In this document: piece after piece, positions 27-29,548 of the stretch | Numbering within the stretch: position 1 is the stretch's first letter | Layout: each line of letters begins with the position of its first letter | Source: a virus | DNA: 30,412 bases | Direction: 5' to 3' (one strand) | Virus record (IMG/VR): IMGVR_UViG_3300048809_000061 | Coordinates: 1-30,412 of that record | Position numbers and translations under genes: made by a program | The notes under the pieces: generated by a model | Databases searched by the model: none | Seen by the model: only the letters and a program-made list of their open reading frames with translations | What the model was told of the DNA's origin: nothing

Positions 27-3000
27 TTAGTCGGGCCAGGGGCCGAGGCCACAGGAGCCGTAACAAACGTAGATTGTGCGAGTGAGAGCTGTGTCGATTG
101 GGACGTAAGGATTAGCGCCTGCACGTGGAGGACAAAAAGTAGAATCGAGGGACCCGATGCAGGGGCCGACGCCTCCACCATCCGTCGCGATGTGACCGAA
201 AAAATTAATATTAAAGAGGCCGTCGACATAAGAGCATCCAGTGCACAGCGCAAGATTGTGATAGTCGAACGTGCCCCACGGCGGCGAAACCAGTGGACAG
301 GTATAAATCGTTCCACTCGTGCAATCACCCGAAGGGAAGAGTCCTGAGCCGTATCCGATACCGTTGAGGAATCCCGTGAGTCCGAGACAGATCGGATTGC
401 CGTTTCCGTCGGCCGTCTGATTCGTTGCGCAGCCGACCGTTGCCGGGACGCAGTTGCCGCCGCCGTTCACGCCTGCCGTGCTCGGACAGAATGGGCTTCC
501 CGCGCCGCCCGCGCCAAACACCGCCGAATAGAGTGCTGCCCTGGCTGTCGTCGGCAAAACGAAAACGTCATGGTGGATCTGGTTACTCTGTTGATCCCAC
601 ATCTTGTATGCGCCCTTGTTGGCTTCGAGGCCAGAGCATGCGCCCGAACTGCAATAGATCCCGTTGCCGTTCGTCCCGAAGTACATGATCGAATTGATGA
701 GCGCGTTATTAAGCATCTGCGGGGTGTAGCCATGTGAGCCGCCGATGTGCGCGATCCCGCCGGTGTAGAGCGCGAAATGGTTGACGATGAAATTCTTCTG
801 AAAGCCGCTCGCGTTGTTAGCCTGGCAGTTGACTGCTGTCCCGGACGCTCCCGACGGGGCAGGGAAGCTCACCGTCAGAGTTGCGGGATTCGTGGTGTTG
901 CTGGCATAGACGTTCTGTCCGGACGGAGGGGGAACGCCGCCCGGCGGGACGTTGAAACTTCCGGGCGTGCAGTTTGTGACGTAGGCAATATCTCCCGGCG
1001 AAATGTCGAGCAGGTTGAAGGCGACTGATTGAATCGAGAGATTTGCGGGGCCACATCCTGTGCTCCCATTCCCTTCTCCGCCGCAGGCAATGTCGTTACT
1101 GTAAGGCGAGTTCCCCGCCGCGACCGAAGTTCGACCGAAGGCCGGACACTGCGAGGCGCCCCCAGAGCCGCAATTCGAGCAAGCCGTGCCGATCTGCGCG
1201 GAGTTCGAATAAACGCCCGCGTTGCAGGTAGGCGCGTAAAATCCCGCCGCGACGCCCGAGGTCGTACAGACGCCTGCGGACATAGTTCTGCAATCGATTC
1301 CCGTTGCAACGATGGCCGCGTAATTGGTATCGGTGCAGATCGCGGGGTACGGACCGCCGCCGGTGCACTGACTGGAGGCTAGTGAAAATTGCGCCGTCCC
1401 ACCGTTCAAAACATCTTGCCGCCCGATGAAGCAAACCGTCGCGGAATTCGCCGCGCCAGGACAGCTAGGATTTGTCGGGTTATCGAGGACAATGCCGGTC
1501 AGTCCTGAAACGTTGTAAGGCGGATTCGGACAGGTTACGCTCTCGACTCCGCCGGAAATGCTCGCGGTGCAGTTCGGGTAAGTGTTGCCCGCGGATCCGT
1601 AGAGGATCACATCTCCAAGGTTGGAGCCGCCGAATTGCTGGTTGTCGGTGTTGTAGGCCAGGACGTTCTGAATCAAGTTTCTATTTTCGCCGGCGGAGAT
1701 CCCGCCCCCGTTGCCCGGTCCGAGCGCGCGCGGAGAGATTGACCAGACACCGCTCGCGTTGCGGACGATTCCATTCGTAAATCGAATGTCGTTCGATTGT
1801 GTCAGAGGGACGCCAGTCGGGCCGACGATCGAGCAGACAGTCCCTCCGGAGCAAACCCGCGCATCCATCGCGAAGATTTCGCCCGTCTGTCCGTCCGGCC
1901 ACATATTCTCCCCGAGAAAACCGTCGATCGTGCAGCGCAGGCAATATTTTTCCTCGAAAGCTTTTTTCATCGCCCACGCGAACGGGCAGATCTGCGCGGA
2001 TTTCGTTTGGTAAAGTGGCCCCTGTCCGCATCCGTACCCTTGCGAGTTTGGAACTTGCGGGACCGTCGCTTGCGGAGAGTGGCCGGAATTGCCGGTCAGA
2101 AATCTGTAGCCGGGATCGCTTCCGGTGCGGAACGATCGAACCTCGACGTCGGTCAAAACGCCATTATTCGGATTGATCGCCGAGCCGCCCGAGAACCAAC
2201 ATTCCGCGGTGCAACGCAAGAGGAACTGCGCCATCTTGTGCGGTCCCTGCATACCGTTTCCGCCGGTATTGATCTGTCCAGGGACGACGCCCGCCGGAAC
2301 CGGGTTGAGGTTGTCGGCGCCGTGCCCGATCGAGTAGACGTGGCTCTCGTCCTGAAATTCGTGCGTTTTTGTGATGGCAAAATATTCGCTCGCAGTGAAG
2401 CCGCCGGATCTCACCGTGACACCCTGGTCAAGTTTTTCTCCACAGCCTGAATCGTAAGGAAGGTTCGAGCCGGTGAGCGTGATCGGGTTGAGCTGTCCGC
2501 TTCCGTTTAAGTTTGTTCCCCCTGGATAAGTCGAGTAGTAACTCCAACTCGGGCATTCGTGGTGCCCGTCGGTCGGGTTGACGGGATAGCCGGCGTTGAT
2601 CCCGATCTGCTCTTGCGAGAGCCCCCAACCGCTATACGGGGCCGGGTCGCCTGGATCCCAACCGTGCCCGAAAAAATGATCCTGGAAGCACGCGATGCAA
2701 TCGACTGAAATCAGCGTCGGCGAACCGTCGCAGTTCACGGTCGAATAAGCCGCGCACGGGCCGTTGTCGTCCATCTCCTGCACGATCCCCGGAGTGATCG
2801 TCACCTCGAAGCCAGAAAGGGAAGTATTGTTTCCCATCTGCTGGATGACCGTCGGCGTCACCGTCCCAGACCAGGCCGCGAGCGCGAAGGTGAACATCGA
2901 AGGGAGATCGTTGTAGCAGTTATTTGAATTCGCGCCCGTCGGCGAGACGTTCACGATCGCCGAGTCGAGGATGGAATGAAAACATGGGATCTGATTCGCG

Positions 3001-5462
3001 AGATTGTTGCAGGGCGTGTCGTTGGTCCCGCCGAAGGTTCCGTTCTTTCCGGATCCGGCGCCCGGCGAACATTGCCCGGTCATGCGGAAAAATCCATTCG
3101 CCGCCGGCACTGCGCTCGGAGTAAACACCGCGCCGCTCGTCTGTCCGATCCAGGTATGAGTTCCGTCCGCGGTGCCGTTGACGATCGGGCCGATCTGAAT
3201 TGGTCCAACTTGCGTGACTCCGGTTGCGCCTGCGACCACGCCATTCACGCAAGGCCGCGGATACACTGGCGGAACATCGACCGCGGGGCCGCCGCTCGAC
3301 TGGCATCCGTAGAAATATAAATTCGCTTCCGCGAGCGTCGTTTGCTGCTGAATCACTTCGCCAAGCTGAAAATTGCCGCTAGTGACTGATCCCGCGATCG
3401 ACCAGACGCCGATCGGCGTGTTAGTAGGCGAATGCGGACACACCGGAGTGCTGCCATAAAAAACTGGCTGCCATCCCTGGATCTTCACGGGAGCGTTCCA
3501 CATGGCGGTGTTCGTCGAGTCGAGAATGCCGCTCGAAAGCAGCGATCCATTCTTGACTTCGACCCAGAGATACCAATTCTGAAGCGCCGCGGTGCTCGTC
3601 AACTCCGAAGCCCAATCACATCCGGCCGAGTTCAATCCTGCGAGCGTGGCCGGGTAGTCGTTCGATCCGAAGCCTAATTGCTCATGCACGCAGTGATTCG
3701 CCGCGTTGCAGGTTTTCGGCAGGCTGTATGTACAGTTGGTGTCGGTCGGCTGGCACGGGTTTCCCGTCGTGGCATTGACGCCGCCCTGGTGGATCGTGAC
3801 CCAGTTCTGCGGTTCGACGGCGGTTTGAGGTGTTCCAGTTGCGCCTACCACAATTTCAGTGAAGGCCGCGATCGCGGTTTCCGGTGTCGGCGAACTCGAA
3901 TCGGTGACGAGAACCGTGTAGGCGTAAGTCGCGTTCGTCGCCGGAAAGCCGGATAAAACTCCCGCGGTGGTCAGGGTTTGCCCGAGCGGAATCGACCCGG
4001 ATTGAATCGTCCAGGTATAGGGCGCGGTGCCGCCGATCGCGTTGAAGGTGTAAGCGTAGAAGCTTCCGGTGACGAGCGGGGTTGGCGGATTCGGACAGGT
4101 GGGATAGTTCGTCGAGTAACTGACGCTGGTTTGCGTGCCTGCGGTTGCGGTGAGAGTTAATGACGTGCTGGAACCGATCGAGGCAATGACATAGTTCACC
4201 GAGTTAATGGTGATGACCTGCGTCGGCTGCAGATTATTGAAGTTGTTTCCGCTTACCCAGGTGACTGCTGTCCCGCTGGTCGAGACCACGCCGGAATTCT
4301 GCAAAGTCACAGTCGAATCGCAAACGACGAGGCCCGGTGCAGGAGTGTTCTGCGCGGTTTGCTGGAAGCTGGCCGTGACGCACGCGGGCGTGGCTTCGGA
4401 ATCGCAAGCCTCAATCCCAAACGTTTCTGTGCCGCTTGAATTGGTACAACTCCCCGAAAGCACGCCGCTCGGAGAAAGCGTGAGTCCCGGCTGCAAGGTT
4501 CCTGATGGCTGCGACCAGGTGTAAGGCGAGACTCCGCCGGTTGCCGCGAAAGTGAAAGAGTAGGGAATGCCGATGGTGCAATTCGGCAGCGGGGAAGTGC
4601 TCGTGATTGCGACCGTCGAAACCGGCGGATTGAGGACGATCCCGCCGTTCATTTTTACGCCGCCGTTCGCGAGAACCCCGGTCGTTTGCCCGACAAGGCT
4701 GGTCACATAGGAGAACGCGATCGCGGCGACGACGCCGGGAAGAGGAGTGCTCGACGCCCAGGCCGGAACCGGAGCCGAGCCGTTGACGTTGAGCAGATAG
4801 GAATTATTAAAATGCGATCCCGACTGAGTGAATTCGTTCGTCGCCCATACCGAAGGCGTGACGCCGATCGCCGTATTCCCCGAGAACATCTGAAAATAAA
4901 TGTCGTTTGCGCCGGAGAGGTAGAGGGGCACGCCGGAGTAGCTCGTCGTCGGACTGGAAATCGCGGCCGTGCCGAGACCGTCAACCGAGGCGAGGGTAAC
5001 GCTCGCGGGATAAGAGAACTCAAAAAATGAGAAGCCCCAAGTGTCGCTCGCGGCCGTCGAGCGCGTCAGTTGAAGGCAGTCCGCGCCGCCGCCACTCGTC
5101 AAAGAGTAGCCGACGGCCGCGTTGGTCGCGCCTTGCCAGATCTGGCCGGTCGGCGGGAGTGTGACGGTGTCGATCACGCTTCCCGTGCAGGTGTGAGTGA
5201 TCGTATTCACGCCGCCGTTGTAGGTCTGCGCGGTAACTAGAGAGCATTGATTCTGCAGCGTCGGCGAGCCGCAATTCCAAAGCAGGGCGAGAGCCTCGTC
5301 GGTCGATCCCGTCGAAGTGATCCCCTCGGCGCAAGTTAAATTCGTGGCGCCGCAGGTCGAGCTCGTTGCCGAGTTCGTCTGCTGAATGACGGTCCATCCT
5401 GTCCCGAAGGCGGGGATCGCCGCGAGAGCGCAGAAAAGCAGAATACAGAAAAGTTTTTTCAC
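27..5462 (-). CDS. Giant exported tailspike/adhesin-like protein with Ig-like repeats
   Basis: About 1,811 residues from a GTG start at 5462; an ATG at 5501 would add 13 residues and overlap the upstream gene. The GTG start places the basic KK directly before a hydrophobic core (LFCILLFCALAAIPAFG), a textbook Sec signal peptide, so I prefer it, although neither start has a clear Shine-Dalgarno. Two He_PIG/Ig-like modules are visible near residues 295-385 and 470-555, numbered from the ATG, each with a 'GGxxPYTW' core and an 'xGxLSG' turn. The rest is rich in Gly, Asn, Thr and Ser, with short irregular repeats like a right-handed beta-helix, as in tailspikes. I count roughly 65-70 cysteines, which is extreme for a phage protein. 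It lies last in the late cluster, the usual place for a receptor-binding protein. Function is inferred from position and composition; no catalytic motif was recognised. Confidence 0.8.
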   Translation of the reverse strand: MKKLFCILLFCALAAIPAFGTGWTVIQQTNSATSSTCGATNLTCAEGITSTGSTDEALALLWNCGSPTLQNQCSLVTAQTYNGGVNTITHTCTGSVIDTVTLPPTGQIWQGATNAAVGYSLTSGGGADCLQLTRSTAASDTWGFSFFEFSYPASVTLASVDGLGTAAISSPTTSYSGVPLYLSGANDIYFQMFSGNTAIGVTPSVWATNEFTQSGSHFNNSYLLNVNGSAPVPAWASSTPLPGVVAAIAFSYVTSLVGQTTGVLANGGVKMNGGIVLNPPVSTVAITSTSPLPNCTIGIPYSFTFAATGGVSPYTWSQPSGTLQPGLTLSPSGVLSGSCTNSSGTETFGIEACDSEATPACVTASFQQTAQNTPAPGLVVCDSTVTLQNSGVVSTSGTAVTWVSGNNFNNLQPTQVITINSVNYVIASIGSSTSLTLTATAGTQTSVSYSTNYPTCPNPPTPLVTGSFYAYTFNAIGGTAPYTWTIQSGSIPLGQTLTTAGVLSGFPATNATYAYTVLVTDSSSPTPETAIAAFTEIVVGATGTPQTAVEPQNWVTIHQGGVNATTGNPCQPTDTNCTYSLPKTCNAANHCVHEQLGFGSNDYPATLAGLNSAGCDWASELTSTAALQNWYLWVEVKNGSLLSSGILDSTNTAMWNAPVKIQGWQPVFYGSTPVCPHSPTNTPIGVWSIAGSVTSGNFQLGEVIQQQTTLAEANLYFYGCQSSGGPAVDVPPVYPRPCVNGVVAGATGVTQVGPIQIGPIVNGTADGTHTWIGQTSGAVFTPSAVPAANGFFRMTGQCSPGAGSGKNGTFGGTNDTPCNNLANQIPCFHSILDSAIVNVSPTGANSNNCYNDLPSMFTFALAAWSGTVTPTVIQQMGNNTSLSGFEVTITPGIVQEMDDNGPCAAYSTVNCDGSPTLISVDCIACFQDHFFGHGWDPGDPAPYSGWGLSQEQIGINAGYPVNPTDGHHECPSWSYYSTYPGGTNLNGSGQLNPITLTGSNLPYDSGCGEKLDQGVTVRSGGFTASEYFAITKTHEFQDESHVYSIGHGADNLNPVPAGVVPGQINTGGNGMQGPHKMAQFLLRCTAECWFSGGSAINPNNGVLTDVEVRSFRTGSDPGYRFLTGNSGHSPQATVPQVPNSQGYGCGQGPLYQTKSAQICPFAWAMKKAFEEKYCLRCTIDGFLGENMWPDGQTGEIFAMDARVCSGGTVCSIVGPTGVPLTQSNDIRFTNGIVRNASGVWSISPRALGPGNGGGISAGENRNLIQNVLAYNTDNQQFGGSNLGDVILYGSAGNTYPNCTASISGGVESVTCPNPPYNVSGLTGIVLDNPTNPSCPGAANSATVCFIGRQDVLNGGTAQFSLASSQCTGGGPYPAICTDTNYAAIVATGIDCRTMSAGVCTTSGVAAGFYAPTCNAGVYSNSAQIGTACSNCGSGGASQCPAFGRTSVAAGNSPYSNDIACGGEGNGSTGCGPANLSIQSVAFNLLDISPGDIAYVTNCTPGSFNVPPGGVPPPSGQNVYASNTTNPATLTVSFPAPSGASGTAVNCQANNASGFQKNFIVNHFALYTGGIAHIGGSHGYTPQMLNNALINSIMYFGTNGNGIYCSSGACSGLEANKGAYKMWDQQSNQIHHDVFVLPTTARAALYSAVFGAGGAGSPFCPSTAGVNGGGNCVPATVGCATNQTADGNGNPICLGLTGFLNGIGYGSGLFPSGDCTSGTIYTCPLVSPPWGTFDYHNLALCTGCSYVDGLFNINFFGHIATDGGGVGPCIGSLDSTFCPPRAGANPYVPIDTALTRTIYVCYGSCGLGPWPD

Positions 5463-5466
5463 GAAA

Positions 5467-6744
5467 TTAGTTGCGGAAGGTGCACTCGTAATCGACCACA
5501 TCAGTCGATCCGGAAGTGGTGAAGGTGACGCTGGTTGTTCCGGTGTAAGTGACTTTCACGGCCGCGATCGCCGTTTCGTCGGACCCGTGGCAGCTCGGAT
5601 GCACGTTATAGGTGCCGGTGAAGGTGTAAGTCGCCGTCCCGCTCGACATGGTTAAATTGCCGTTCAGGTCGGAGTTGCCAGACTGGCCGCTGCCGATCGC
5701 TTTGGTTCCAGTCGAAACTCCGAGAGTAGTTTGACCGCTATTCGCGACACTAAAGACCGAGGCCGCCGAGGCATTGGTGACGTTCAAGCACTGCTGTGTC
5801 GAGCCAGCCCCCGAGTTGCAACCTGGCGAAATCGGGATGACAGTCGAGGCGGTCGGCGCGATGGTGTTCGCCGCCGTGGTTCCCGGATTCGAGACCAGGG
5901 CGTTGGCCGAGGACGCCGACGCTCCGCTCAGTGGCGTGAGCTGGATATAGCAGCCAGGCGAGACGGTGCAGCCGGTTGGAATTGTGCCCGTGCTCGGATT
6001 GAGAATCACTTTCCCGACAATCGTCGCGGTTGAAGTGGGATCGGCGTTCCCAAGGTCGGTGACCGCTCCCGCAGTCGAGCCAGAGATTCCGACTGCATCT
6101 CCGACGGTGGGGCTCGCAGAATCAAAAAACACCTGCACATTGCCGGCGAACTGGATCGAGGCCTGTCCGCTCGTTCCGCAACCGGAATTCACCACTCCGA
6201 GAATCAGGAGCTCGTCGCCGGTTGTATTCGTCGCCTTGCCGAGCGTCGTCGAGCCCGCGGTCTGGTCAACTTTGGCGAGGGAGTTGCAGATCGTCCCGTC
6301 TGCGGAGTTCGGGTAGGTGAATACGAGTGAAGATGTCCCCCCGCCGCCGCCCACTGTGAAAATGCCAACCTGTGGATTGATGACCGAGCCGTAGAAAGTC
6401 GCCCAAAAAGTGCCCCCGTTTGCCAGGTAAACCGGCCAATTTCCGTAAGGATCGCTCGTCAGGGGGTTGGTTTTTGTCGACGTGACCGTGATGTCGCTAT
6501 AGAGCGTCACGAGCGACGCCGGAGGCAGGGGGCCGCTATAGGCTCCGGAGGGGTTTCCGGCGCAATAGGCGTAGCCTGGGGCGCTTCCGCAGGGGTTTAC
6601 GGAGGAAATGGCAACCGAGGCTCCGGCGATCGGCTGGCCCATGCCGTTTGCTACGGGAGGGCCACTGTAGACGACACCTTGGCCGAAAACGAGGGAGGTG
6701 CAGAGAAGTGCACAGAAGGCGAAAATACAGGTTGCTTTTTTCAT
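5467..6744 (-). CDS. Tail-fibre-like protein with Sec signal peptide
   Basis: A 425-residue protein starting at ATG with MKK and a hydrophobic core ending in SLVFG/Q, a likely signal-peptidase I site near residue 21. The segment after it resembles the short beta modules of phage tail-fibre N-termini ('LVTLYSD', 'NPLTSDPYGNWPVYLANGG'), a pattern I associate with acidobacterial phage fibres. A GGGGG linker follows near residue 135, then a Ser/Thr/Gly-rich beta region. The C-terminus ('TYTFTGTYNVHPSCHGSD' and after) resembles fibre tips. About 11 cysteines remain after the signal. It sits immediately upstream of the giant tailspike, separated by 4 nt from its GTG, so the two are probably co-translated. 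The ATG lacks a clear Shine-Dalgarno. The fibre role is inferred; the signal peptide and low-complexity beta composition are seen directly. Confidence 0.8.
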   Translation of the reverse strand: MKKATCIFAFCALLCTSLVFGQGVVYSGPPVANGMGQPIAGASVAISSVNPCGSAPGYAYCAGNPSGAYSGPLPPASLVTLYSDITVTSTKTNPLTSDPYGNWPVYLANGGTFWATFYGSVINPQVGIFTVGGGGGTSSLVFTYPNSADGTICNSLAKVDQTAGSTTLGKATNTTGDELLILGVVNSGCGTSGQASIQFAGNVQVFFDSASPTVGDAVGISGSTAGAVTDLGNADPTSTATIVGKVILNPSTGTIPTGCTVSPGCYIQLTPLSGASASSANALVSNPGTTAANTIAPTASTVIPISPGCNSGAGSTQQCLNVTNASAASVFSVANSGQTTLGVSTGTKAIGSGQSGNSDLNGNLTMSSGTATYTFTGTYNVHPSCHGSDETAIAAVKVTYTGTTSVTFTTSGSTDVVDYECTFRN

Positions 6745-6772: not shown

Positions 6773-7048
6773 ATGAAGCGTGCTTTCTATTGGTTTTTCA
6801 GTTCGCGACGGTGGATACGCATCCCTCTCTGGTTAGGGTTGAGTCTGCTTGTTGGTTCGATCTGGGGTGATTTCGCTGGCGGCTGCGTCCTTGTGGCTCC
6901 CGGTTTCGCTCTCATGGTGCTCTACGTCTATTACCGACTCCGCCAATTCGTCCGGTTCCTTTCCCGCTCGATCAAGGCTTTGCTTTTTTCGCGGCCGCGA
7001 GTGATTTCGTCAGGATCGGCGTCAGGTCGTCCGGTGTTGCTGCCTTAA
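6773..7048 (+). CDS. Candidate small membrane protein (possible holin-like)
   Basis: A 91-residue open frame on the opposite strand fills most of the 227-nt gap between the fibre gene and the KTSC protein, and overlaps the 3' end of the latter. The preferred ATG at 6773 gives a basic N-terminus (MKRAFYWFFSSRRW). Two adjacent hydrophobic stretches follow near residues 20-36 and 43-58, separated by a short turn, then a basic tail. Other in-frame ATGs lie at 6743 and 6758. An AGGATGG tract lies upstream but its spacing is poor. The layout resembles small phage holins or inner-membrane proteins, and no other lysis candidate is visible in the window. It could also be a chance frame, since GC-rich DNA gives many antisense ORFs; the hydrophobic/basic pattern and intergenic location are the only support. 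Confidence 0.35.
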   Translation: MKRAFYWFFSSRRWIRIPLWLGLSLLVGSIWGDFAGGCVLVAPGFALMVLYVYYRLRQFVRFLSRSIKALLFSRPRVISSGSASGRPVLLP

Positions 7049-8222
7049 ATTCCATCGCTCCCTTGTTTGCTGTTCGCACTCCCTGTGGGCTGATCTTCGC
7101 GAGTTTCACGTTGTTATCGCGGATCGCTTTCCATGCCTGCCCTTTCGAGTCTGCGTTTGCGAAAGCGTCGGCCTGGTCCGGAGTCACTTCACCGTAAACG
7201 TGCACTGTCCCGTCTTTCGCGGTGACGTGCAACTCCCGCGCGGCGGGATCGTACTTGAAAGATTTCACCGCCGAAGATTCGACTGTCGTGTGGCCTTCCG
7301 GCCCAGAAACTTGCGGTTCTGTTTTGAACTGATCCCGAATCTTTACGCCGGGTTTGATCGTGACCGGCTTGTTGCCGAGCGCTTCGCCGAGTTTCTCCTG
7401 AACTTCTGCCGGTGCGATGGCGCGAGGAACTACTGGCGGCGCAACTTGTTCGGGGGCAGGAATGTTTCCCAGGGCCGCCCCTCGCGGCGGGGGAGGGGTA
7501 TGCCCGCCTTCAGTGAGCGCCCGCGCTTGAGTAACTTCGACTGCCGGCGTTTCGGGCAGCGGGGCACCCGGATAGACCGGTTTCGGAAGTCTGAATGTCT
7601 CTCCCGGCACGCGGAGTTTCGGCAGTAGTTCTTTGCCGACTCCGTACCCGATAGCAGCACCGACCGGGCCCGCTTCCGGAATTCCGGTTGCATGACCAAT
7701 CGCCGCGCCTGCTCCCGAGCCGATCAGGCCAGGGGCACGCTCCAAAACTTTATTGGTTCCTTTCGCTAGCCCGCGAACAACTGGCGGTACAACTTTCGGA
7801 ATCGCAGTTTCCATTCCTGCCGCGATGAGGGCTTGCGGTGCGCCCTGCCCCGCTGTCTCCTGCGCGACCTTCGCGTAAGTTCCGGCCGGATCGGCCGACT
7901 CATTGATGTCGTGAATTGCTGCTGGAATTTGCGCGGCCTGCTCTGGTAGAGCGATCAGGCCTTTTGCGGTGTGAATCGGATGGCGAAATGTATCGTAGAG
8001 TCCTACGCCTGCATCCCTGGCGCCGCGCGCGAGACTCTGCACTCCTGAGAGCGTCGCGTTCTTATAGCTGGTCAAGGGAACCTCTTTATCGAGAAAGCCG
8101 GGGTCGTCTTTGCTTCCAATCGGCTTCGCCGTGGACATATCGAGAGTCACTCCCGATTGCGGAGCAATCGGCTTCGCCGTGCTCATGTCGAGCGTGACCG
8201 GACTAGCGGACACTGGGGACAA
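6972..8222 (-). CDS. KTSC-domain virion/ejection-like protein
   Basis: A 416-residue protein. Residues 314-370 fit the KTSC domain (PF13619): 'VESSAVKSFKYDPAARELHV', then a 'GTVHVYGEV' strand and a 'SKGQAWKAIRDN' helix. KTSC domains are small nucleic-acid-associated folds, often found in phage or regulatory proteins, with no firm biochemical role. The N-terminus carries the 11-residue motif VTLDMSTAKPI twice (residues 9-19 and 25-35, period 16). The middle (about 110-200) is an Ala/Gly/Pro-rich, glycine-zipper-like hydrophobic stretch that could insert in membranes. It overlaps the upstream gene by 20 nt. Its position between the tail genes and the fibres is where podoviruses encode ejected internal virion proteins, so that role is inferred. 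Confidence 0.8.
   Translation of the reverse strand: MSPVSASPVTLDMSTAKPIAPQSGVTLDMSTAKPIGSKDDPGFLDKEVPLTSYKNATLSGVQSLARGARDAGVGLYDTFRHPIHTAKGLIALPEQAAQIPAAIHDINESADPAGTYAKVAQETAGQGAPQALIAAGMETAIPKVVPPVVRGLAKGTNKVLERAPGLIGSGAGAAIGHATGIPEAGPVGAAIGYGVGKELLPKLRVPGETFRLPKPVYPGAPLPETPAVEVTQARALTEGGHTPPPPRGAALGNIPAPEQVAPPVVPRAIAPAEVQEKLGEALGNKPVTIKPGVKIRDQFKTEPQVSGPEGHTTVESSAVKSFKYDPAARELHVTAKDGTVHVYGEVTPDQADAFANADSKGQAWKAIRDNNVKLAKISPQGVRTANKGAMEFKAATPDDLTPILTKSLAAAKKAKP
8118..8198 (-). repeat. Tandem direct repeat encoding VTLDMSTAKPI twice
   Basis: Two 33-nt copies (8118-8150 and 8166-8198) with a 48-nt period lie in the 5' end of the KTSC-domain gene. The copies differ at a few bases but encode the identical 11-residue peptide. 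Silent divergence with a conserved peptide suggests the motif is under selection rather than a recent duplication, perhaps as a short binding peptide. Confidence 0.75.
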
Positions 8223-10255: not shown

Positions 10256-10654
10256 TTAGGTTGTCCTTCTCGGAGCCGTCGATCGCGTGAGTGGCGTCCA
10301 GAGCGGCCGCACCCATCCGAAATCGCGCATCAGTCGGCGTCCGAAACTCTTCGTTTTCTCGGGCGGCAGAAAAACATGCGCGTCCTCGAAGCCTTTGCCG
10401 TGGAGATCTCGTCGCATACTCTCGTGGAGATCCTGTAAAACCTGAAAACGGCGAAGCGCGGTCGACCATTTAGGATCGGCAAGGAAATAAAGTTCCACCG
10501 TCGGCCGCGCCAGCACCGCTTGCTGAATCTCGCCATCGTCGAAGGCCTGCGCCGCGACCAGTGTCCGGAGATCCGGCAAGTCGTAATCGAACCCCTGCAG
10601 CTCGAAGAGTTCTTGCAGTCGAGCCGAGTCCGAAGATTCCAACCGTCGAATCAC
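10256..10654 (-). CDS. GNAT-like acetyltransferase-fold protein
   Basis: A 132-residue protein starting at a GTG that overlaps the upstream TGA by 4 nt (GTGA). The order of elements fits the GNAT fold: an N-terminal strand and helix (MIRRLESSDSARLQELF), a 'FDYDLPDL' segment, a central strand ending 'VELYFLADPKW', a long helix, and a C-terminal 'FLPPEKTKSFGRRLMRDFGW' region. I associate this pattern with GNAT-like proteins encoded in phage tail modules. The usual acetyl-CoA pyrophosphate-binding loop (Q/RxxGxG/A) is not obvious, so catalytic activity is uncertain. Placement inside the tail/ejection cluster suggests a virion-linked or host-modifying role. Alternative: a purely structural protein with a similar fold. 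Confidence 0.65.
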   Translation of the reverse strand: MIRRLESSDSARLQELFELQGFDYDLPDLRTLVAAQAFDDGEIQQAVLARPTVELYFLADPKWSTALRRFQVLQDLHESMRRDLHGKGFEDAHVFLPPEKTKSFGRRLMRDFGWVRPLWTPLTRSTAPRRTT

Positions 10655-15898: not shown

Positions 15899-15917
15899 CT
15901 AGGTTAAAATCTTGCTC

Positions 15918-16250: not shown

Positions 16251-16352
16251 ATGTACGATCCCGGGGCCGCTTTTTACAATCTGCGCCGCAAAATTCCAAT
16301 CATTTCGGTGCCGACACCGGAAGAGTTCCGCCGCGGCTTTCCTGACGGCTAG
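16251..16352 (+). CDS. 33-residue ORF downstream of the Tat gene
   Basis: ATG at 16251 and TAG at 16350-16352. The peptide begins MYDPGAAFYNLRRKIPIISV and continues with 'PTPEEFRRGFPDG'. A good AAGGAG precedes it and it follows the Tat-signal gene by 12 nt, so the two probably form a small operon. Its stop overlaps the stop of the convergent minus-strand gene in a shared CTAG. The peptide is balanced and protein-like, with a basic central patch and an acidic turn. No family was recognised. Confidence 0.6.
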   Translation: MYDPGAAFYNLRRKIPIISVPTPEEFRRGFPDG

Positions 16353-17179: not shown

Positions 17180-17180
17180 G

Positions 17181-19468: not shown

Positions 19469-20872
19469 CTAGGTCGGAATCTGGTTTCCCCAATAGACTT
19501 TCTTGCCGTCTTTGAGAATGGCCTGCTGTTTGGCGATCATGCCAAAATCGGATTGGGTGCGGTCGATCTCGTGGGGCTTCGGCCCGGCGGCGACTTTCGT
19601 CCAGCCTTTTTGCGGCTGTGCGGCTGCTCCGGGTTTCACGGTTCCGGCGACTGGTGCTTTCTTCGCCGGAGTTGCACCGCGGAAAAAGAGCTTCACTGCT
19701 CTTTCGACCGGACCCATCTTCGCAGGCTGGCCGTTGCGTCCCGGTTGCGAGCGGAGCACGGTCTCGAGTTTCTGTCGCATGTAGGCGACGAGACCAGCCG
19801 TGTCCTTCGCTTCGGAGTAGGCGGCGAACGTCTTAATGAAATCAGGGTCCGCGGCGAATTCCTTGTCCATGTAAACCGAGATCTGACGGTCGAGCGCTTC
19901 AAAAGTTTCGTCGTCGAGTTCGGCGCCCTTGGGCAAATATTGCGTCGCTTCCTTGCGGATCAGGGACGCGCGGAAGGGGTTGATCTGGCCTGCGGTTTCG
20001 TTCGCCCAGATCTTTGATTCGCGATCGTCGAGTGATTTATTGCGGTCGTCGACTTTGGGGTCTTTCTGTGGAGCGACTGGCGCTTTCTGTGCCGTGTCGT
20101 CAACGGCCGCCATCCAGTCGGTGACTTCTTTCAGGAGAGCGGTTGCCCCGTCTTTGTCTCCGGCGGAGATCAGCCGGTTCAGGAATCCGAGGTTCTGCTT
20201 CACGCCCGACTGCACGAGCGTGTTGCGGAGAACCTGCGCCATGTAGTGCTGATAGTGTTCGGGGTTCGTGCTCGCGAGCTTGTTCATCGCGACGGGCACG
20301 AGTTTCGCCGTCGCTTCCGGGTTCATGTCGAACCAGGTATCGATCACTTTCGGATCGGCTTTATTCCAGGCTTCGTCGATCCCGCGCCACTCTGCGATTT
20401 CCGTTTTGACGGCTGCCACGTCGGGGAAATCTTTTTTAAAGGTCGCGACTTCCGTCTTAAGGGTTTTCAGCTCTGCGAGGCCGCCGGGCAGTTCCTTTTT
20501 GAATTCCCGGTTCTCGAAGAGTCGATCCTTCATCCAGGCGTGGGCTTTCGGGTCGGTAGCTTTGAGGGCGTCGAGGGTTTCCCGGACTTTGGGCGGCATG
20601 GTGCGGCCGTCGAGTTGCGCGTCCGCTTGCGGCTTTCCGTCAATACCCGGTTTGTCAGCACCAGGCTCATCGGCGGATTGGTTATCGCTACCACTAGAAT
20701 CTTCCCCAGCGTCCGCGCCAGGATCTCCATTGGCCGCGCCATCGTCTGCGCCGGGGTCTCCTGCATCGTTTCCTCCTGCAGCGATCGGATCAGCAACCGC
20801 TCCGGCCGCGAAGAACATCGTACCTGCGAACATCAGGTAGCTGAAAATCGAGAAAAAGAATTTGTGTGTCAT
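19469..20872 (-). CDS. Candidate scaffold protein with signal-peptide-like N-terminus
   Basis: A 467-residue protein. The ATG at 20872 is fixed by AGGAGA (20876-20881), which overlaps the portal stop. The first 28 residues (basic MTHK, then SIFSYLMFAGTMFFAAGAVA/DP) look like a Sec signal with an AxA-type site. Residues 30-90 are very acidic, Gly/Asp/Ala-rich and disordered. A helical, coiled-coil-prone body follows ('DALKATDPKAHAWMKDRLFE', 'AELKTLKTEVATFKKDFPDV', 'DDRNKSLDDRESKIW'), then a basic C-terminus. No cysteines are present. Position between portal and major capsid, plus charge and helicity, fit a scaffold. A signal sequence on a scaffold is unexpected, since capsids assemble in the cytoplasm, so the role is uncertain. 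Between it and the capsid gene, 151 nt show no feature beyond a short ATCCC/GGGAT repeat. Confidence 0.75.
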   Translation of the reverse strand: MTHKFFFSIFSYLMFAGTMFFAAGAVADPIAAGGNDAGDPGADDGAANGDPGADAGEDSSGSDNQSADEPGADKPGIDGKPQADAQLDGRTMPPKVRETLDALKATDPKAHAWMKDRLFENREFKKELPGGLAELKTLKTEVATFKKDFPDVAAVKTEIAEWRGIDEAWNKADPKVIDTWFDMNPEATAKLVPVAMNKLASTNPEHYQHYMAQVLRNTLVQSGVKQNLGFLNRLISAGDKDGATALLKEVTDWMAAVDDTAQKAPVAPQKDPKVDDRNKSLDDRESKIWANETAGQINPFRASLIRKEATQYLPKGAELDDETFEALDRQISVYMDKEFAADPDFIKTFAAYSEAKDTAGLVAYMRQKLETVLRSQPGRNGQPAKMGPVERAVKLFFRGATPAKKAPVAGTVKPGAAAQPQKGWTKVAAGPKPHEIDRTQSDFGMIAKQQAILKDGKKVYWGNQIPT

Positions 20873-20879: not shown

Positions 20880-23243
20880 CTATTGCAGCGTCGGCGCTGC
20901 GGGTGCGGGCGAATTCATCGGACCTGGTGTCGGGATCGGTGGAGCGACGTGTACGCCCTTTTTCGGCGGCATCGGTGGAATCGCGCCCGGCGGCGGAGCC
21001 TGCGCGGCCTTCGCCGCCTTATGCTCCATGCCGTGCAGCTTCACGTTCAAAATCCCCCACTTGTTGCTTTTCGCCTCTTCGATCCCATCGGAAGACGAAA
21101 GGAACTGCTCGATCTTTGCGATTTCGTAGTTGTGGCGATCCCACATCGGATCGACGGGAATCGAGGACTGATACATCTGCATGGCATTCGGCGGCGGAGT
21201 CTTTGGCACTGGAATCCCCGTGCCCTCTGCTTGCTCGGCGACGGCGCCCTCGATCGCCTGGTCGGCCGCGTAGGCCTTGATCGCATCGACGTTCGGCGTC
21301 GGCCGCGATTTCAAGAGCAGCTCGATCTCCATCATTTGCTTGTCGCCCGACTCGGCGCCGGGAATGACCCAATCGTGCACGCCCAAGAGTTCCCGCTGAA
21401 TTTCCAGGTTCTCCGGTTCGAGCACTCCATAGGCTTCGGTTGCCTCCGGGTTGGTCAAGGCTTGGGTCACGATCGACGAAACGGTCTGCCGCTTCGAGCC
21501 GGTTGTTTCCGGGAACGAGGAATCGAGATCCGGGTAGGTGTGGAAGTTGCCTTTTTGTAGATCGGCGACCGCGATCGTCGCGACCATCGACTTCCCGCGC
21601 TTGGCCGGGATCTTGACGTGAATCTTTTCGTCGGTATCTTTCGCCGAGGCCGCGGCGCGACACAAAGCGCCCTGCCGGTAAGCCGTAGCGAAGAGTTCCT
21701 GTACTCCGCCCCAGCAAATCGAAAACTGCCCCATCGCCTGATCGCGCATCATGGCGATGCCGCCCTTGGTTGTGTTGTCGGCGTCCGATCCACCGAACAG
21801 GGCCGGTTGCGCTCCGGTCATAAACTGGCCGAGGGCGCCCATCAGGTTCTCGTAGGCTTGCTGGATCTGAATCGGACAGCCAGGCGCGGGCTCGACATAG
21901 AAAGCGTCGGCAATAGTTCCGAGGCCGCCAGGCAGAACGACTTCGACGTGGTTGCCGGGCTCCGCGGTTTGGTCGCGCATCGCCTCGCCGTCGAACAACT
22001 CCTTGAGTTGGTAAACAGTCGGGATGCCGAAGTCGGCATACTCTTTTTCTAGGTTCCGGTAGTCGTTGAAAGCGTCCTGCACAGGAACGAAGTCGTGCAT
22101 CATCGAAGGCTTCGAGGCGCCGTCGCCAGGACCAGGCCAGCCAACCGAGAGATGGTCGTCCATCGCCTGATCGCAGGATCCGCAGTAGGCATCGCCGACG
22201 ACCACCACTTTCATTCCTGAGGGGTAAAGTTCGCGGAGTCGTTTTTCGATGTCGGCCGGCGCGTGACGGAAAGCCGCGGGCCGCATCCACACTCGTTTCC
22301 GGGTGACGAGATGCGCGAAAGCGTCGCCGGCATTGTTTAGTGCTCGCGTTCCCTGGAGCACGCCGATCCGCGCCATGCGCCGATAACTGCTTTCGCCGGC
22401 GCCGGAGTTGCCCTGGCGGATATTAGCCGCATATTTCGGGTACGTCTCTTTCGCGAGATTCAGGGCGAGCTCGTCGTCGATCGGGAAGTAGATCCACTCT
22501 TCCATTTTGTCGGTGGTGATCGGTGTCGGCTTGGTTTCGAGCGTGCCGTGCGCCGACATCAATTGCACGGTCTTCGGCTGGCCTTTATTTGGGCCGTCGT
22601 TCTCAAATCCGAATTTCTGCCCGTCGCGCACGTTGCGGGTGTAGATCACGCAGCGCGTATCGGTGCAGAAAAGGCTCATCGCGTCGGCCTGCAATTTCTT
22701 CCGTTTATTCACGCGATCGATCGCGAAGCGGAAGGTCTCGGCGGCGCGCGACGCGGAAATATCGGTCGAAACGGTTGGATCGTCGGGCTCGAAGTCAACG
22801 CCGGGCGGATTCTGCACGCCGATCGAGATCAGGGCGCGCATGTAAGGCCAGAAAATGTTATAGACGTCGGTGTATCGCGAAGAATCGCCGTCGGGTGCGC
22901 CGTTCGACTCGTCGCCCGCACCGCCATAGGGAGTGAAGATAAAGCCATTCGATTCCAAACAAACGACGTACTGATCGCCGCGGCGATAGAAGCGCTGCCT
23001 TCGGGCGTCGATGGTCTCGGTCCGGACGGCATATTTGTCGAGGCCTTCGTAGTGCTTCACCAGGGCAAGAATCGCTTGCTGCAGCGGTTCGTCGTTTTCC
23101 GCCGGATCCGTGAGTCCGTAGTCTTCACAGGCGCACTTCGAGCCGTCGTTCTCCTGGATTTCAGGAGTCTCTTGTTCGCCGTTGGTTTCGCCGGTTGCTT
23201 CCAGTGAAGTGCCTTGTGCGTTGGCGATGGGAGTGGTACTCAT
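20880..23243 (-). CDS. Portal protein (P22-type, large)
   Basis: A 787-residue protein. Its size, acidic N-terminus and Pro-rich C-terminus match podoviral portals of roughly 700-800 residues. Visible elements include 'RRQRFYRRGDQYVVCLESNG' near residue 81, 'YNIFWPYMRALISIGVQNPP' near 128, 'FGIPTVYQLKELFDGEAMRD', and the Gln-rich channel-like helix 'GCPIQIQQAYENLMGALGQF'. The last 60 residues are Pro/Ala-rich. Cysteines form C37xC39 and C354GSC357 pairs, which is odd for a cytoplasmic portal. The ATG abuts the upstream TAA (TAAATG). The portal anchors terminase and forms the DNA channel. Identification rests on size, order and general sequence style. Confidence 0.85.
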   Translation of the reverse strand: MSTTPIANAQGTSLEATGETNGEQETPEIQENDGSKCACEDYGLTDPAENDEPLQQAILALVKHYEGLDKYAVRTETIDARRQRFYRRGDQYVVCLESNGFIFTPYGGAGDESNGAPDGDSSRYTDVYNIFWPYMRALISIGVQNPPGVDFEPDDPTVSTDISASRAAETFRFAIDRVNKRKKLQADAMSLFCTDTRCVIYTRNVRDGQKFGFENDGPNKGQPKTVQLMSAHGTLETKPTPITTDKMEEWIYFPIDDELALNLAKETYPKYAANIRQGNSGAGESSYRRMARIGVLQGTRALNNAGDAFAHLVTRKRVWMRPAAFRHAPADIEKRLRELYPSGMKVVVVGDAYCGSCDQAMDDHLSVGWPGPGDGASKPSMMHDFVPVQDAFNDYRNLEKEYADFGIPTVYQLKELFDGEAMRDQTAEPGNHVEVVLPGGLGTIADAFYVEPAPGCPIQIQQAYENLMGALGQFMTGAQPALFGGSDADNTTKGGIAMMRDQAMGQFSICWGGVQELFATAYRQGALCRAAASAKDTDEKIHVKIPAKRGKSMVATIAVADLQKGNFHTYPDLDSSFPETTGSKRQTVSSIVTQALTNPEATEAYGVLEPENLEIQRELLGVHDWVIPGAESGDKQMMEIELLLKSRPTPNVDAIKAYAADQAIEGAVAEQAEGTGIPVPKTPPPNAMQMYQSSIPVDPMWDRHNYEIAKIEQFLSSSDGIEEAKSNKWGILNVKLHGMEHKAAKAAQAPPPGAIPPMPPKKGVHVAPPIPTPGPMNSPAPAAPTLQ

Positions 23244-23703: not shown

Positions 23704-25437
23704 CTAGTTGATGACCTTCACTGTCACGTTCGAGAGCAGGGGCGTGTCGGTGGTGCCCGTGGTTTCGACGTACACGATGTCAATGCGCGCCGGTCCCGCC
23801 AGGTTCAGCGAGCCGATGGCCGCAATGCCGATGTTGGTTCCAGCCGTGGGTGCAGTGCCGGCCGCGATCGCCGTCGCTGTTTCCCATCCAAGAGTGGAGC
23901 GCAACGACCCGCCGGTTGCCGAAGCCGAGGCCACCGTGGTTTCGATGTCCTGGCAGAAGTTCCAGTTATAGGCGACGTTGGTTTGCGTGGTGGTGATCTT
24001 CGGACCGCCGATATAGACCGGAATGCCGGTGGTCACGTTCGAGCCGTCGGCATCCCACCAGAATTGGATGGCCGTGATGGTGTTCGCTCCGCCGGCCGCA
24101 TCGACGATCTGCCCACAGATTTCGATTTCCCGGCCCACGTAGTTCATAAACTGAGGGGGGATCTGCACGGAGCCGAGGACGAAGGGAACGGTAGAGGCGA
24201 GCGCCGCCGAGATGGTGGCGGGTTGGTTCGAGCTTACGACGCCATTCAGTCCCGGATGGGAACCCGGAACGTAACTGTAAACGGTGTGAGCTTCGACGTT
24301 TGGGGCGTAATAGGAAGTGGTAGAAACGCCGCCGAGCTGGAACGCTTGCTGTGAAGTTACGACCGGATATACGATCGCAACCGCGCCTGAACCTGTCTGA
24401 CCGTAGGTAGTGTTGGCGACTGCGCAAGCGGGAAGAATGGTTTCGACGGTGGTCAGAGTGCAGACGCCGTTCGAAACCGGGGCGGCTCCAATCACTGTCG
24501 GCTGCGTCACCAGTGGGATGTTGTACTCGTTCTTTGCTGAGCCGCTTTCGAGCCCGACGTAGAGAACATAACCGACAGCTCCCGCCGAAGCTGCCGGGGC
24601 GGTGAACTGAATCGCTTTCGCTGAGGTGTCGGTGAAGGAATAGTCAGCCGAGCATGGCCCTTCGTTGCCGGCGAGGTCCACGTATGCGATACAGACGTGA
24701 ATGGTGCCGCCTGTATAGCAGGAGCCGCTCGGAGTGCAGGACGCACTGGCGCTTGAAAACGCAGTGCTCGAGGTGAGCGTCGTCGGCGCGGCGAGGAAAG
24801 TCGTCACCGTCGGCAACAGGTTCCAGTATTGCGTGGCGTTGCCGCGGTAGTCGACAATCCCGACGCTCGGGAAGCCGGTGGCCGCGGTCAGGATCGCGTT
24901 CGTTCCCTGAAGTGCGGAGCCGTAGCCGCCCGCCCAGAAGGTGTCGATTACAACCTGACCGCCGCCGGTCGAGAACGCATCATTGATCGCTTCTTGCGAC
25001 CCAAACGTGCCAGATTGTACGATCTCACCTTGGCCGTGCAGGTTCGAAAACGATGCGGTGATGTTGCAGCTAATGCCTTGAGAACCGCTCAGAATCGAGG
25101 CTTCATAGCATCCCGAGACTGCAGTCGGCGTAACCGTTTCCTGGTTCGTGCCGTTGCCGACCAGAATCGGCGCGTTGACGTTGAAGGGCATATCCGTCCG
25201 GCCGTCGGGAAGGGTGACGAGTCCCATTTGCAAGGTGATCGTCTGCGAGCCGGTCGCGCTGTTGCCGGATTGCACGCGAGCGGGAGCCATCGCGCCGAAA
25301 CCGTAAGCGTAGTTCGGAGCATAGAAAACGCCGAGCCCGCGGGAAATATCCGAGGGCGGCGAAGCGGGAAGATACTGGCCGAAAGCGGATCCAGCCAGTA
25401 GAGCCAGGGTTGCAATTGCGAGTGTGATGCGTTTCAT
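23704..25437 (-). CDS. Exported beta-rich structural protein (decoration/fibre-like)
   Basis: A 577-residue protein with a classic Sec signal: MKRITLAIATLALLAGSAFG, then QYLP, cleavage likely after AFG. AAGGAG at 25448-25453 gives a good ribosome-binding site. The mature part is rich in Thr, Ser, Gly and Ala with beta character. A fibronectin/Ig-like module lies near residues 230-300 ('GGTIHVCIAYVDLAGNEGPC', 'GAVGYVLYVG'). The C-terminal half has 'IPPQFMNYVGREIEICGQIV' and 'IQFWWDADGSNVTTGIPVYI', which resemble jelly-roll virion proteins. About 11 cysteines are present. It is encoded between terminase and portal, where head decoration proteins can occur. Export of a head protein would be paradoxical, so the true role is open: surface decoration, fibre, or host-surface protein. 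Confidence 0.8.
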   Translation of the reverse strand: MKRITLAIATLALLAGSAFGQYLPASPPSDISRGLGVFYAPNYAYGFGAMAPARVQSGNSATGSQTITLQMGLVTLPDGRTDMPFNVNAPILVGNGTNQETVTPTAVSGCYEASILSGSQGISCNITASFSNLHGQGEIVQSGTFGSQEAINDAFSTGGGQVVIDTFWAGGYGSALQGTNAILTAATGFPSVGIVDYRGNATQYWNLLPTVTTFLAAPTTLTSSTAFSSASASCTPSGSCYTGGTIHVCIAYVDLAGNEGPCSADYSFTDTSAKAIQFTAPAASAGAVGYVLYVGLESGSAKNEYNIPLVTQPTVIGAAPVSNGVCTLTTVETILPACAVANTTYGQTGSGAVAIVYPVVTSQQAFQLGGVSTTSYYAPNVEAHTVYSYVPGSHPGLNGVVSSNQPATISAALASTVPFVLGSVQIPPQFMNYVGREIEICGQIVDAAGGANTITAIQFWWDADGSNVTTGIPVYIGGPKITTTQTNVAYNWNFCQDIETTVASASATGGSLRSTLGWETATAIAAGTAPTAGTNIGIAAIGSLNLAGPARIDIVYVETTGTTDTPLLSNVTVKVIN

Positions 25438-25497
25438 TGGTTTAGTGCTCCTTGAGGGCTGGAGGCCCGGATAGTAAAAACTGAGTGCCTGAAAAAT

Positions 25498-25890: not shown

Positions 25891-25917
25891 GATGTTTTCC
25901 TTCTTGCTGCTGAACTG

Positions 25918-25941
25918 TGCCCCGGAGTGGATACCGGGGCA
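25918..25941 (-). other. Intergenic hairpin
   Basis: A perfect 8-bp inverted repeat TGCCCCGG / CCGGGGCA with an 8-nt loop lies in the 69-nt gap before the His-rich gene. No U run follows on either strand, so it is more likely an mRNA-stability or processing hairpin than an intrinsic terminator. Confidence 0.6.
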
Positions 25942-25959
25942 GGGGCTCGACCGTTGAAG

Positions 25960-27222: not shown

Positions 27223-28503
27223 TTAGCTCGCTTGTTGCGTGGCACAGAGAGAAGTCTCGCGCATCTGGTTGTACATCAGCCGCCAGCCGCCGATCCGGTC
27301 ATGGTCGGCCAAGGTTGGCTCCGGCATTCCGTGCTTGCGCATCACTCTTCCGATCTGCAGCTCGACGGTTTGCGCGACGCCCAGCTTCTTTTTGCGCTCC
27401 GGGCCGATCGGGCCGATGAAGAAATACTTGATCGTGCGGCGCTCGACGGCGTTGCAGTTCTTGACGATCGCTTCGGCAATCTCGACCTCGCTCTGCTGCT
27501 CCATCATCAGCGTCTTGTAGGTGACGACCAGGTCGATCGGTGAAGCTTTCGAGATCAGGCCCGTCGCCTTGCGCAACTCTTCCGCGGAAACTTTCCCGCG
27601 CGCATGCCAGAGCACTCCGGTGTGGTGATAGACGCCCCAGTCGAGACTCAACCAGCGAGTCCACCAGGGCTTGACCAGCGCGAGTACCTGGTCCGGAGAG
27701 AGCTGCATTTTCTTTTTGTCGAAGACGGCGCCGAAATACTGACCCGCGAAGCGGTCGAACCTGCCTAGTAAATGGCCGATGCGAATGTGTTCCGGCTGCG
27801 CGTCGAGATCGCGGCCGTACTGGGTGCGGGTGACGAAATATTGAAAGCGCTTCGCCTCGTCCCAAGAGTCGTAGTCTTCGACAGTCAGTCCGTCCGACAT
27901 CAGCGCGGGACGCGCCCACTCGACATTGTCCCAGCCGTAGGCCTGGATGAAGGCGAAGTCTTCGGCGCGTTCTTTGCCTTCATAAACCTTGTCGTAGAAA
28001 ATCCGTTTCAGGAAGGCGACCGAGACGCCGCCGGGATTGTAGAAGAGTCCGAGCTTGCATTTGCCTTCGGGTTGGTTCGGGGCGCGGGCGGCCATCTTGA
28101 TCTGCCGCAGTTCTTTCTCTGTGAATTGCTCCGCCTGGTCGACGAAGATGTCCATGAATTCCGGCCCCCAGAATTTGCGGGTGACGTCGGCTTCGGTCTC
28201 GGCCGCCATAAACGAGATTCGCGAGCCGTTTGGCATATTGATTTCCTTGTTGGCGTAGAAGGGCACGAGATCAGGGAAGGCTTCGAGTATTGGTTGGACG
28301 TGGTTTTTCATCACATCGTCCCAGACGCGCCGCACAATGGCCGCTTTCGATCCGGGATAGTCGAGCCGCCGCCGCAAACACACGCGATCAATTCCGCCGC
28401 TCTTGGCGCCGCCACGTGAGCCGCCGTAGCCAATCCAGGTTGCAGGGCCTTCAAAGAGATCATCAAGCTCAGATTGTTTTGGCTGGAGAACGATTTGCGC
28501 CAA
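27223..28503 (-). CDS. terL: Large terminase, ATPase and partial nuclease
   Basis: 426 residues from a TTG start overlapping the TerS-like gene by 35 nt. The ATPase Walker A is 'GGSRGGAKS' (residues 27-35). Walker B is 'MDIFVDQAEQ' (D122; the usual DE is DQ, with E125 two residues on). The nuclease begins at 'SLDWGVYHHTGVLW' with D288, the expected first metal ligand. Where related TerLs carry SPD, this one reads 'YFFIGPIGPE', so the second acid may be missing; that comparison is from memory. The frame stops at TAA after 'CATQQAS', before the conserved end found in the next ORF. TerL pumps DNA into the prohead and cuts the concatemer. Packaging function depends on how the stop is dealt with. 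Confidence 0.85.
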   Translation of the reverse strand: MAQIVLQPKQSELDDLFEGPATWIGYGGSRGGAKSGGIDRVCLRRRLDYPGSKAAIVRRVWDDVMKNHVQPILEAFPDLVPFYANKEINMPNGSRISFMAAETEADVTRKFWGPEFMDIFVDQAEQFTEKELRQIKMAARAPNQPEGKCKLGLFYNPGGVSVAFLKRIFYDKVYEGKERAEDFAFIQAYGWDNVEWARPALMSDGLTVEDYDSWDEAKRFQYFVTRTQYGRDLDAQPEHIRIGHLLGRFDRFAGQYFGAVFDKKKMQLSPDQVLALVKPWWTRWLSLDWGVYHHTGVLWHARGKVSAEELRKATGLISKASPIDLVVTYKTLMMEQQSEVEIAEAIVKNCNAVERRTIKYFFIGPIGPERKKKLGVAQTVELQIGRVMRKHGMPEPTLADHDRIGGWRLMYNQMRETSLCATQQAS

Positions 28504-28795: not shown

Positions 28796-29548
28796 CTAGT
28801 AGAGGACGCAGCCGCCGGCGTATGCGTTGACGGTGACGGTTCCGGTTGATTCCGCGCCCGCTTGCACCTGCAAAGTGCCAGCGGTCGCCGCGTTCTCAAT
28901 GATGACGGTGAAGTGAACCCAGTCGGTGGTCGCCGCGGTCACGATGCCTGTGCCGATCATCCCGAACTGCGTCGGGAAAGCGGCGGCTTGTTGCGCGGCG
29001 GCGGTTGCTGTCGCTACGGCGGAGGCGCCGTTTCCGACCCACGTTTCCGTGACCAATGAAGGCAACGCCGGCCCGGTGAGTGCGAAGTTTAGGCCAGCCG
29101 TGCTTGCGCTCGCGGTGTAATTGAAATCGCACTGCAGCACATAGTTCGTGTTTCCGGCAATCGGCCAGGACAAACCGACCATGGCTGCCGGGCTGAAGGC
29201 CGACGAGAATGTCTGCGTGAATTGAGTCGTGAGGAATTGCTTCGACGGGATCGTGGGCGGGACCGCGGCCCAGGTTGAGCCGCTGTATTGGCAGACGACG
29301 ACGATCGAGCCGCCGCCCGTGGCGCAGTCGGTCGCCGTCGTTCCGTCGGTGACGGTTGCGATCGTCCCTTTGGTTTTGCCGGGGATCGAACTCAATCCGG
29401 AGACGGTCGTAATCGTGACGCCGCCGCCGCCGGATCCGCCGAAGTTGTTTTGGTTGGAAGTCTGCCCGAAAAGCAAAGGAAGGAAAGCCACGACCAGGAC
29501 GACGGCCGCGAGCAGGATAAAAGCAGAAGCGTTGCGGAGTTTAGCCAT
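28796..29548 (-). CDS. Signal-anchor/exported beta-rich virion-type protein
   Basis: A 250-residue protein: MAKLRNASAFILLAAVVLVV plus AFLPLLFG form a basic start and a long hydrophobic core ending before a 'QTSNQNNFGGSGGGG' linker, so either a Sec signal or a membrane anchor. The following 'GTIATVTDGTTATDCATGGG' part resembles short fibre modules. The C-terminal 150 residues form a beta-rich domain ('WPIAGNTNYVLQCDFNYTAS', 'DWVHFTVIIENAATAGTLQV') like a fibre head. Four cysteines remain in the mature part. It starts in the previous gene (8-nt ATGGCTAA overlap) and ends against the TerS start. It looks like a second tail-fibre-type gene placed upstream of terminase. Confidence 0.75.
   Translation of the reverse strand: MAKLRNASAFILLAAVVLVVAFLPLLFGQTSNQNNFGGSGGGGVTITTVSGLSSIPGKTKGTIATVTDGTTATDCATGGGSIVVVCQYSGSTWAAVPPTIPSKQFLTTQFTQTFSSAFSPAAMVGLSWPIAGNTNYVLQCDFNYTASASTAGLNFALTGPALPSLVTETWVGNGASAVATATAAAQQAAAFPTQFGMIGTGIVTAATTDWVHFTVIIENAATAGTLQVQAGAESTGTVTVNAYAGGCVLY

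Follow-up and report, generated by a model that had tools for sequence, protein, structure and literature searches.

How a tailed phage comes to encode several large appendage proteins with apparent Sec signal peptides and many cysteines is the question raised by the late gene cluster analysed here, as standard teaching holds that tailed phages assemble wholly in the cytoplasm, and known tail spikes fold in that compartment without Sec signals. The cluster lies on the minus strand of the window, by which we mean the whole 30,412-base IMG/VR virus record IMGVR_UViG_3300048809_000061, and runs in the order g26, g25, g24, small and large terminase, small genes, g17, portal, scaffold and capsid, followed by two small genes, adaptor-like genes, the nozzle-like g8, small and internal-virion-like proteins, g2 and g1. 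The large terminase (27223-28503, minus strand), which defines the clade considered below, matches Pfam Terminase_3, while the names portal, scaffold, capsid and nozzle rest on gene order and size and are without a family match. The portal-like protein (20880-23243, minus strand) was assigned from gene order and its clade homologues, there being no Pfam or PHROG match, and the major capsid-like protein (18046-19317, minus strand), together with g8 (11200-14580, minus strand), a large nozzle-like tail protein without signal that is conserved in the clade, served as cytoplasmic controls. PHROG, Pfam and PDB-sequence searches returned nothing useful and no tail-spike family match for g1, g2, g17 and g24; among annotated phages the large terminase matched three unannotated faecal-phage records only, and g17 and the portal matched none. 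A scan of a genome collection yielded one contig, in a MAG labelled Patescibacteria, which is uninformative on the host.

A preliminary description of this DNA had placed Sec signals at five starts, those at 5462, 6744, 20872, 25437 and 29548, and N-termini are indeed encoded at all five positions. N-termini were assessed by a rule-based signal-peptide test (not SignalP) that called for a basic n-region, an uncharged core of 9-12 residues, small residues at -3 and -1 and a c-region without charge, and that was calibrated on E. coli, lambda and T7. The test recovered the known secreted proteins of an E. coli stretch plus three membrane proteins, and in lambda it passed Lom, Bor, Rz and RexB and no virion protein; in the stretches of lambda, T7, P22, crAss001 and phi38:1 that were read, head and tail proteins were without signals and only lysis or membrane proteins scored. 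Six window proteins passed, namely g1, g2, g17, g24, the scaffold and a Tat-like open reading frame, as compared to a mean of 0.96 passes for shuffled N-termini of the window genes, with six being reached in none of 2000 shuffles. On the minus strand, g1 (27-5462), a predicted large spike- or fibre-like secreted protein, thus carries the predicted signal (M)KKLFCILLFCALAAIPAFG (5403-5462); g2 (5467-6744), a predicted fibre-like secreted protein of 425 aa, carries MKKATCIFAFCALLCTSLVFG (6682-6744); g17 (23704-25437), a conserved protein of 577 aa between the large terminase and portal genes, carries MKRITLAIATLALLAGSAFG (25378-25437), cut before Gln; and g24 (28796-29548), which is 250 aa long, predicted to be secreted and encoded upstream of the small terminase, carries MAKLRNASAFILLAAVVLVVAFLPLLFG (29465-29548), likewise cut before Gln. 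The basic n-region, hydrophobic core and small residues at -3 and -1 are found in all four proteins and in 32 homologues of g17; the +1 residue is Gln in g2, g17, g24 and the g17 family and Thr in g1, and a lipobox Cys is absent.

Four of the five proposed signals are upheld, those of g17, g1 and g2 also by homologues, and the fifth is not. The scaffold-like protein (19469-20872, minus strand) passes the test, but its export was rejected as the signal pattern is not kept in homologues and the protein contains no cysteine. Scaffold homologues that keep a hydrophobic N-terminus (MFLELLHHLPHILLAATAAV..., MLIQILHHLFPLAILAGT...) have no basic n-region, those of L006 and L007 have histidines, with acidic residues soon after, and those of L029 and L030 are missing the hydrophobic N-terminus altogether, the N-terminus being not signal-like in two of the three homologue types. 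We treat it as a conserved hydrophobic segment of the scaffold rather than an export signal.

As a separate observation, the Tat-like open reading frame (15912-16238, plus strand; leader MDRRKFLGMMVGGVAAAAA) encodes 106-108 aa between tail genes on the strand opposite to its neighbours, and no homologue of it was found in the loci searched. The locus L052 also contains a reading frame with a Tat-like leader (16514-16810, plus strand; 98 aa), located approximately 1.4 kb before the capsid gene, and the last 26 residues of its product match residues 223-248 of the window capsid protein at 58% identity.

The mature parts of g1, g2, g17 and g24 contain 68 cysteines in 1791 residues, 10 in 404, 10 in 557 and 4 in 222, respectively, all even numbers, as compared to one in the 423 residues of the capsid protein and none in the scaffold. 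The contention that these four mature parts are richer in cysteine than the capsid protein is borne out by the counts, although the property is not exclusive to them, as g12 (16349-17251) contains 9, g26 (29954-30223) 6 and the portal 10 cysteines; cysteine parity and paired conservation, rather than raw richness, are the informative features. For g1, which measures approximately 1811 aa from a GTG start at 5462 with an ATG upstream at 5501, and for g2, one signal-bearing homologue each was found, both in L015. The g1 homologue (compared from 5501/5462) carries He_PIG domains, and among the residue types compared cysteine stands out as best conserved, 35 of 50 being kept at an overall identity of 44%; g2 and its homologue share 50% identity over 290 aa. 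No further relatives were obtained with g2 as query, and no usable homologue of g24 was found.

The g17 family, which occupies a conserved slot between the large terminase and the portal, allowed the relation between signal and cysteines to be examined across phages. Terminase-guided searches provided approximately 100 related contigs and a second search was added for a non-redundant set of 81 g17 homologues, of which 32 carry a signal and 49 do not, the former class being defined by an N-terminal extension of at least 16 residues and the latter by one of 0-4 residues, plus L178, where a seeming extension of 14 residues suggests that the start was placed upstream of the true ATG. The extension is thus, L178 apart, all or none. 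Signal-less members start with MALTRFSGAFNVWDYAYG... directly after a Shine-Dalgarno sequence, leaving no room for a missed signal, while in signal-bearing members a complete signal ends at the same point (compare L089, MKKFLGSILVALVALSLPLSA|QNRTRFGGEF, with L039, MANRTRFAGRF) at a consensus cleavage site followed by Gln, a residue that the search for the cut favoured. A pair of cysteines in the N-terminal domain, at mature residues 90 and 104 of the window protein, is present in 31 of the 32 signal-bearing members and in none of the 49 signal-less ones (Fisher p 1e-21, uncorrected for kinship). All 31 complete signal-bearing proteins have an even number of cysteines (2, 4, 6, 8 or 10), as compared to 26 of 48 signal-less ones, a parity effect that was not significant alone on independent pairs in a first, smaller g17 set. 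Of the 20 amino acids, cysteine shows the largest shift (1.47% with signal, 0.49% without, p 5e-11).

With kinship accounted for on the terminase tree, at least 11 switches of the g17 signal fall on supported branches, and of 11 independent contrasts an average of 10.5 show the cysteine pair changing with the signal and none shows the opposite (p ~0.002). The tree of the g17 domain itself requires only 6 signal changes and is poorly supported, so that gene exchange between phages may explain part of the switching; the cassette may have moved with signal and cysteines or with neither, which would lower the independence of the contrasts. On that domain tree L083 and L095 are signal-less members placed among signal-bearing ones, and both N-domain cysteines are absent from them, a likely case of joint loss of signal and cysteine pair to judge from the sequences. 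In either case the signal and the potential for disulfides travel together, as would be expected if the proteins are truly exported to an oxidising compartment but not if the hydrophobic N-terminus is merely decorative. An alignment of 35 g17 proteins proved too diverse to scan with.

Spike-like proteins elsewhere in the clade, a group of uncultivated phages of soil type, extend the pattern beyond g17. Among 26 related records that were read, proteins of at least 300 aa with low charge and a T/S/G/N-rich composition, leaving out the nozzle, comprised 43 signal-bearing by rule and 14 signal-less; by inspection, the 14 resolved into 4 clear signals missed by the rule, 5 signal-less g17 proteins, 3 at or near contig ends and just two others, G004 28374 and G023 36493. 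Over these records and the window, almost every large spike-like protein besides the nozzle and the g17 family bears a signal. An even number of cysteines was counted in 38 of 45 signal-bearing clade proteins, in spite of crude gene calls. As with g1 and g2 in the window, which follow the nozzle and internal virion proteins, the clade spikes sit after internal virion proteins, also in genomes with terminal repeats. Several of the signal-bearing spikes match the tail-spike and EPS-depolymerase families of short-tailed phages (PHROG 2234, 4250 and 18522) or pectate-lyase families in Pfam (PF12708), indicating that these are phage spikes by descent and not captured host genes; some contain GDSL-lipase domains. 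They resemble the known depolymerases in being beta-rich and of low charge and in their position after internal virion proteins, and differ from them in carrying signals and even numbers of cysteines, while window g1, g2, g17 and g24 match no such family. Phages having a g17 signal did not differ clearly from those lacking it in the number of signal genes per genome (p 0.08), and export would thus be clade-wide with g17 as an optional part. In L217, L221, L241, L244, L248 and L251 the spikes have a longer conserved leader, comprising a transmembrane segment, a YSLAEIYFERDWPRRTWRGL-like stretch and a signal core ending in FGQ, which looks like a double-spanning export leader.

A parallel was found in cultured phages. 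Tunturi 1 and Tunturi 2 are podoviruses infecting Tunturiibacter psychrotolerans X5P2, a member of the Acidobacteriota (PMC11924767), and the passages of that paper found by word search make no mention of signal peptides. Signals are present at the depositor-annotated starts of Tunturi 1 gp12, gp13, gp14 ('tail spike'), gp16 and gp17 ('virion structural protein'), and the four large signal-bearing proteins have 20, 10, 20 and 32 mature cysteines, as compared to 0-8 in the terminase, portal, capsid and other tail proteins; Tunturi 2 gp14 is 99% identical to its Tunturi 1 counterpart. Tunturi 1 and 2 are like the window phage in having several tail-cluster proteins with Sec signals, the large ones cysteine-rich, and unlike it in sequence, no similarity being detectable between window proteins and those of Tunturi 1 or Tunturi 3, so that the combined trait recurs in unrelated phages. 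Tunturi 3, which infects the same strain as Tunturi 1, has signal-less fibres with few cysteines, and this shows that an acidobacterial podovirus need not have exported fibres. An acidobacterial host for the window phage is a guess from this parallel.

Smaller points of contact with these phages were also observed. The motif LDMSTA(K/Q)PI links two otherwise unrelated phages, each having it close to the start of a large protein of internal type: the window protein encoded at 6972-8222 (minus strand), which also has a KTSC domain, and Tunturi 3 gp25 (L106:26674-29886). A protein that we read as acetyltransferase-like without a family match is encoded inside the window tail cluster (10256-10654, minus strand); the annotations of Tunturi 1 (gp34) and Tunturi 3 (gp5 and gp22) likewise place acetyltransferases in the tail region.

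Exported phage proteins as such are familiar. Lambda Lom, Bor and Rz are Sec-type exported or membrane proteins that the same test finds; these are small outer-membrane, lipoprotein or lysis proteins, whereas the window proteins are spike-like and without a lipobox. Inovirus coat and adsorption proteins are structural proteins exported through Sec with signal peptides, the adsorption protein having disulfides, but inoviruses assemble at the membrane and are without capsid, terminase and portal, while the window phage is a tailed phage. Searches of the open-access literature turned up no tailed phage for which spike proteins with signals, or a Sec export and disulfide route for spikes, had been described.

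The proposal of the preliminary description that part of the late gene products is exported finds strong support for four proteins, in the signal and cysteine co-variation of 81 homologues and in the clade genomes, and none for the scaffold; signal retention, likewise, is seen in close homologues of g17 and in the L015 homologues of g1 and g2 and not in those of the scaffold. Judged on these sequence comparisons, g1, g2, g17 and g24 are very probably exported and disulfide-bonded. A further-reaching reading, with a probability of roughly 0.45, is a two-compartment assembly in a lineage of the Caudoviricetes, in which capsid, tail core and internal proteins would be made in the cytoplasm while receptor-binding spikes would be routed through Sec for oxidation in the periplasm, so that particles would be completed only once lysis brings both sets of proteins together. 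In the explanation that we favour for this clade, spike- and fibre-class appendages (here g1, g2, g17 and g24) would be made with a cleavable Sec signal, would cross the inner membrane and lose the signal, typically before Gln, and would fold in the periplasm with intramolecular disulfide bonds, while capsid, scaffold, portal, nozzle and internal virion proteins would be assembled in the cytoplasm as usual. The hardened appendages would then meet the particles at cell lysis and attach there, which is the most likely purpose of the route. We infer translocation, disulfide formation and virion attachment from the signals, the paired cysteines tied to them, the conserved gene slots and the tail-spike homology of some clade members, and we put the mechanism as a whole, attachment at lysis included, at about an even chance.

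Alternatively, the proteins may be exported without being virion parts, and have their effect in trans beyond the cytoplasm, at lysis or earlier, either as soluble exopolysaccharide depolymerases or as surface coats or receptor blockers against superinfection or the sticking of progeny to debris. We consider this a real possibility, somewhat short of an even chance. The g17 signal and cysteine co-variation fits trans action equally well, phage infection is known to yield soluble depolymerase as a by-product, and the pectate-lyase and GDSL-lipase domains of some clade spikes would suit it. The g17 structure model, which is mostly beta, with a mean pLDDT of 74.5 and values above 90 over much of the N-terminal domain, is also compatible, as polysaccharide-lyase jelly rolls are the closest solved folds in a full-model search, at a low TM-score and thus weakly, and the similarly weak viral fold matches include tail-spike and pectate-lyase proteins; a search of solved structures with the N-terminal domain, or with a short signal-less member modelled at pLDDT 88.7, gave no confident match. 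What weighs against trans action is that signal-bearing and signal-less g17 members have their whole architecture in common, with an identity of up to 67% in the C-terminal domain (L069 without and L168 with signal, over 154 residues; profile comparison probability 99.9%). For a signal-less member the only way out is at lysis, alongside the virions, and one architecture with and without signal argues for the same final workplace, on or with the particle, export being an alternative folding route. Of the purposes suggested in the preliminary description, namely coating of the host surface, a block on superinfection or the joining of particles outside, the evidence from g17 leans towards a protein that joins the particle. 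In addition, of the four records with terminal repeats (G008, G010, G014 and G023), no large signal-less appendage besides nozzle and g17 was seen in the first three; counting against the favoured explanation, G023 has one signal-less fibre-like protein that could be its receptor-binding protein.

It is improbable that the hydrophobic N-termini stay on the proteins as membrane anchors or membrane-active entry peptides. The extra transmembrane segment upstream of the signal in some spikes and the non-signal hydrophobic N-terminus of the scaffold would agree with retention, but in signal-bearing g17 members the segment ends in a consensus cleavage site and Gln, is present or absent as a whole, and has the paired cysteines strictly tied to it. 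An artefact of annotation or assembly (wrong starts, chimaeric contigs or host genes), to which the rule-based test, the crude gene calls and the absence of strong ribosome-binding sites at g1 and g2 might point, is highly improbable, as slot and order are common to tens of independent contigs, four of them with terminal repeats, and both this synteny and the depositor-annotated signal-bearing starts of cultured Tunturi 1 contradict it.

A lineage-wide use of Sec signals and disulfides on spikes would, if correct, account for the extreme cysteine content of these proteins. The signal and cysteine pattern is not peculiar to the window phage, since members throughout the terminase clade show it and so does cultured Tunturi 1, and the finding is accordingly broader than the preliminary description envisaged, namely a clade-wide habit with an independent cultured parallel. 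In a survey of phage DGR proteins the absence of signal peptides was taken as support for phage origin (PMC6199706); our results indicate that a missing signal peptide is an unsafe test for a phage structural gene. The Tunturi 1 and Tunturi 3 pair, on one host, makes the export habit directly testable. If true, lineage-wide Sec signals and disulfides on spikes would mean either that these tailed phages assemble in two compartments or that they secrete spike enzymes which act before lysis.
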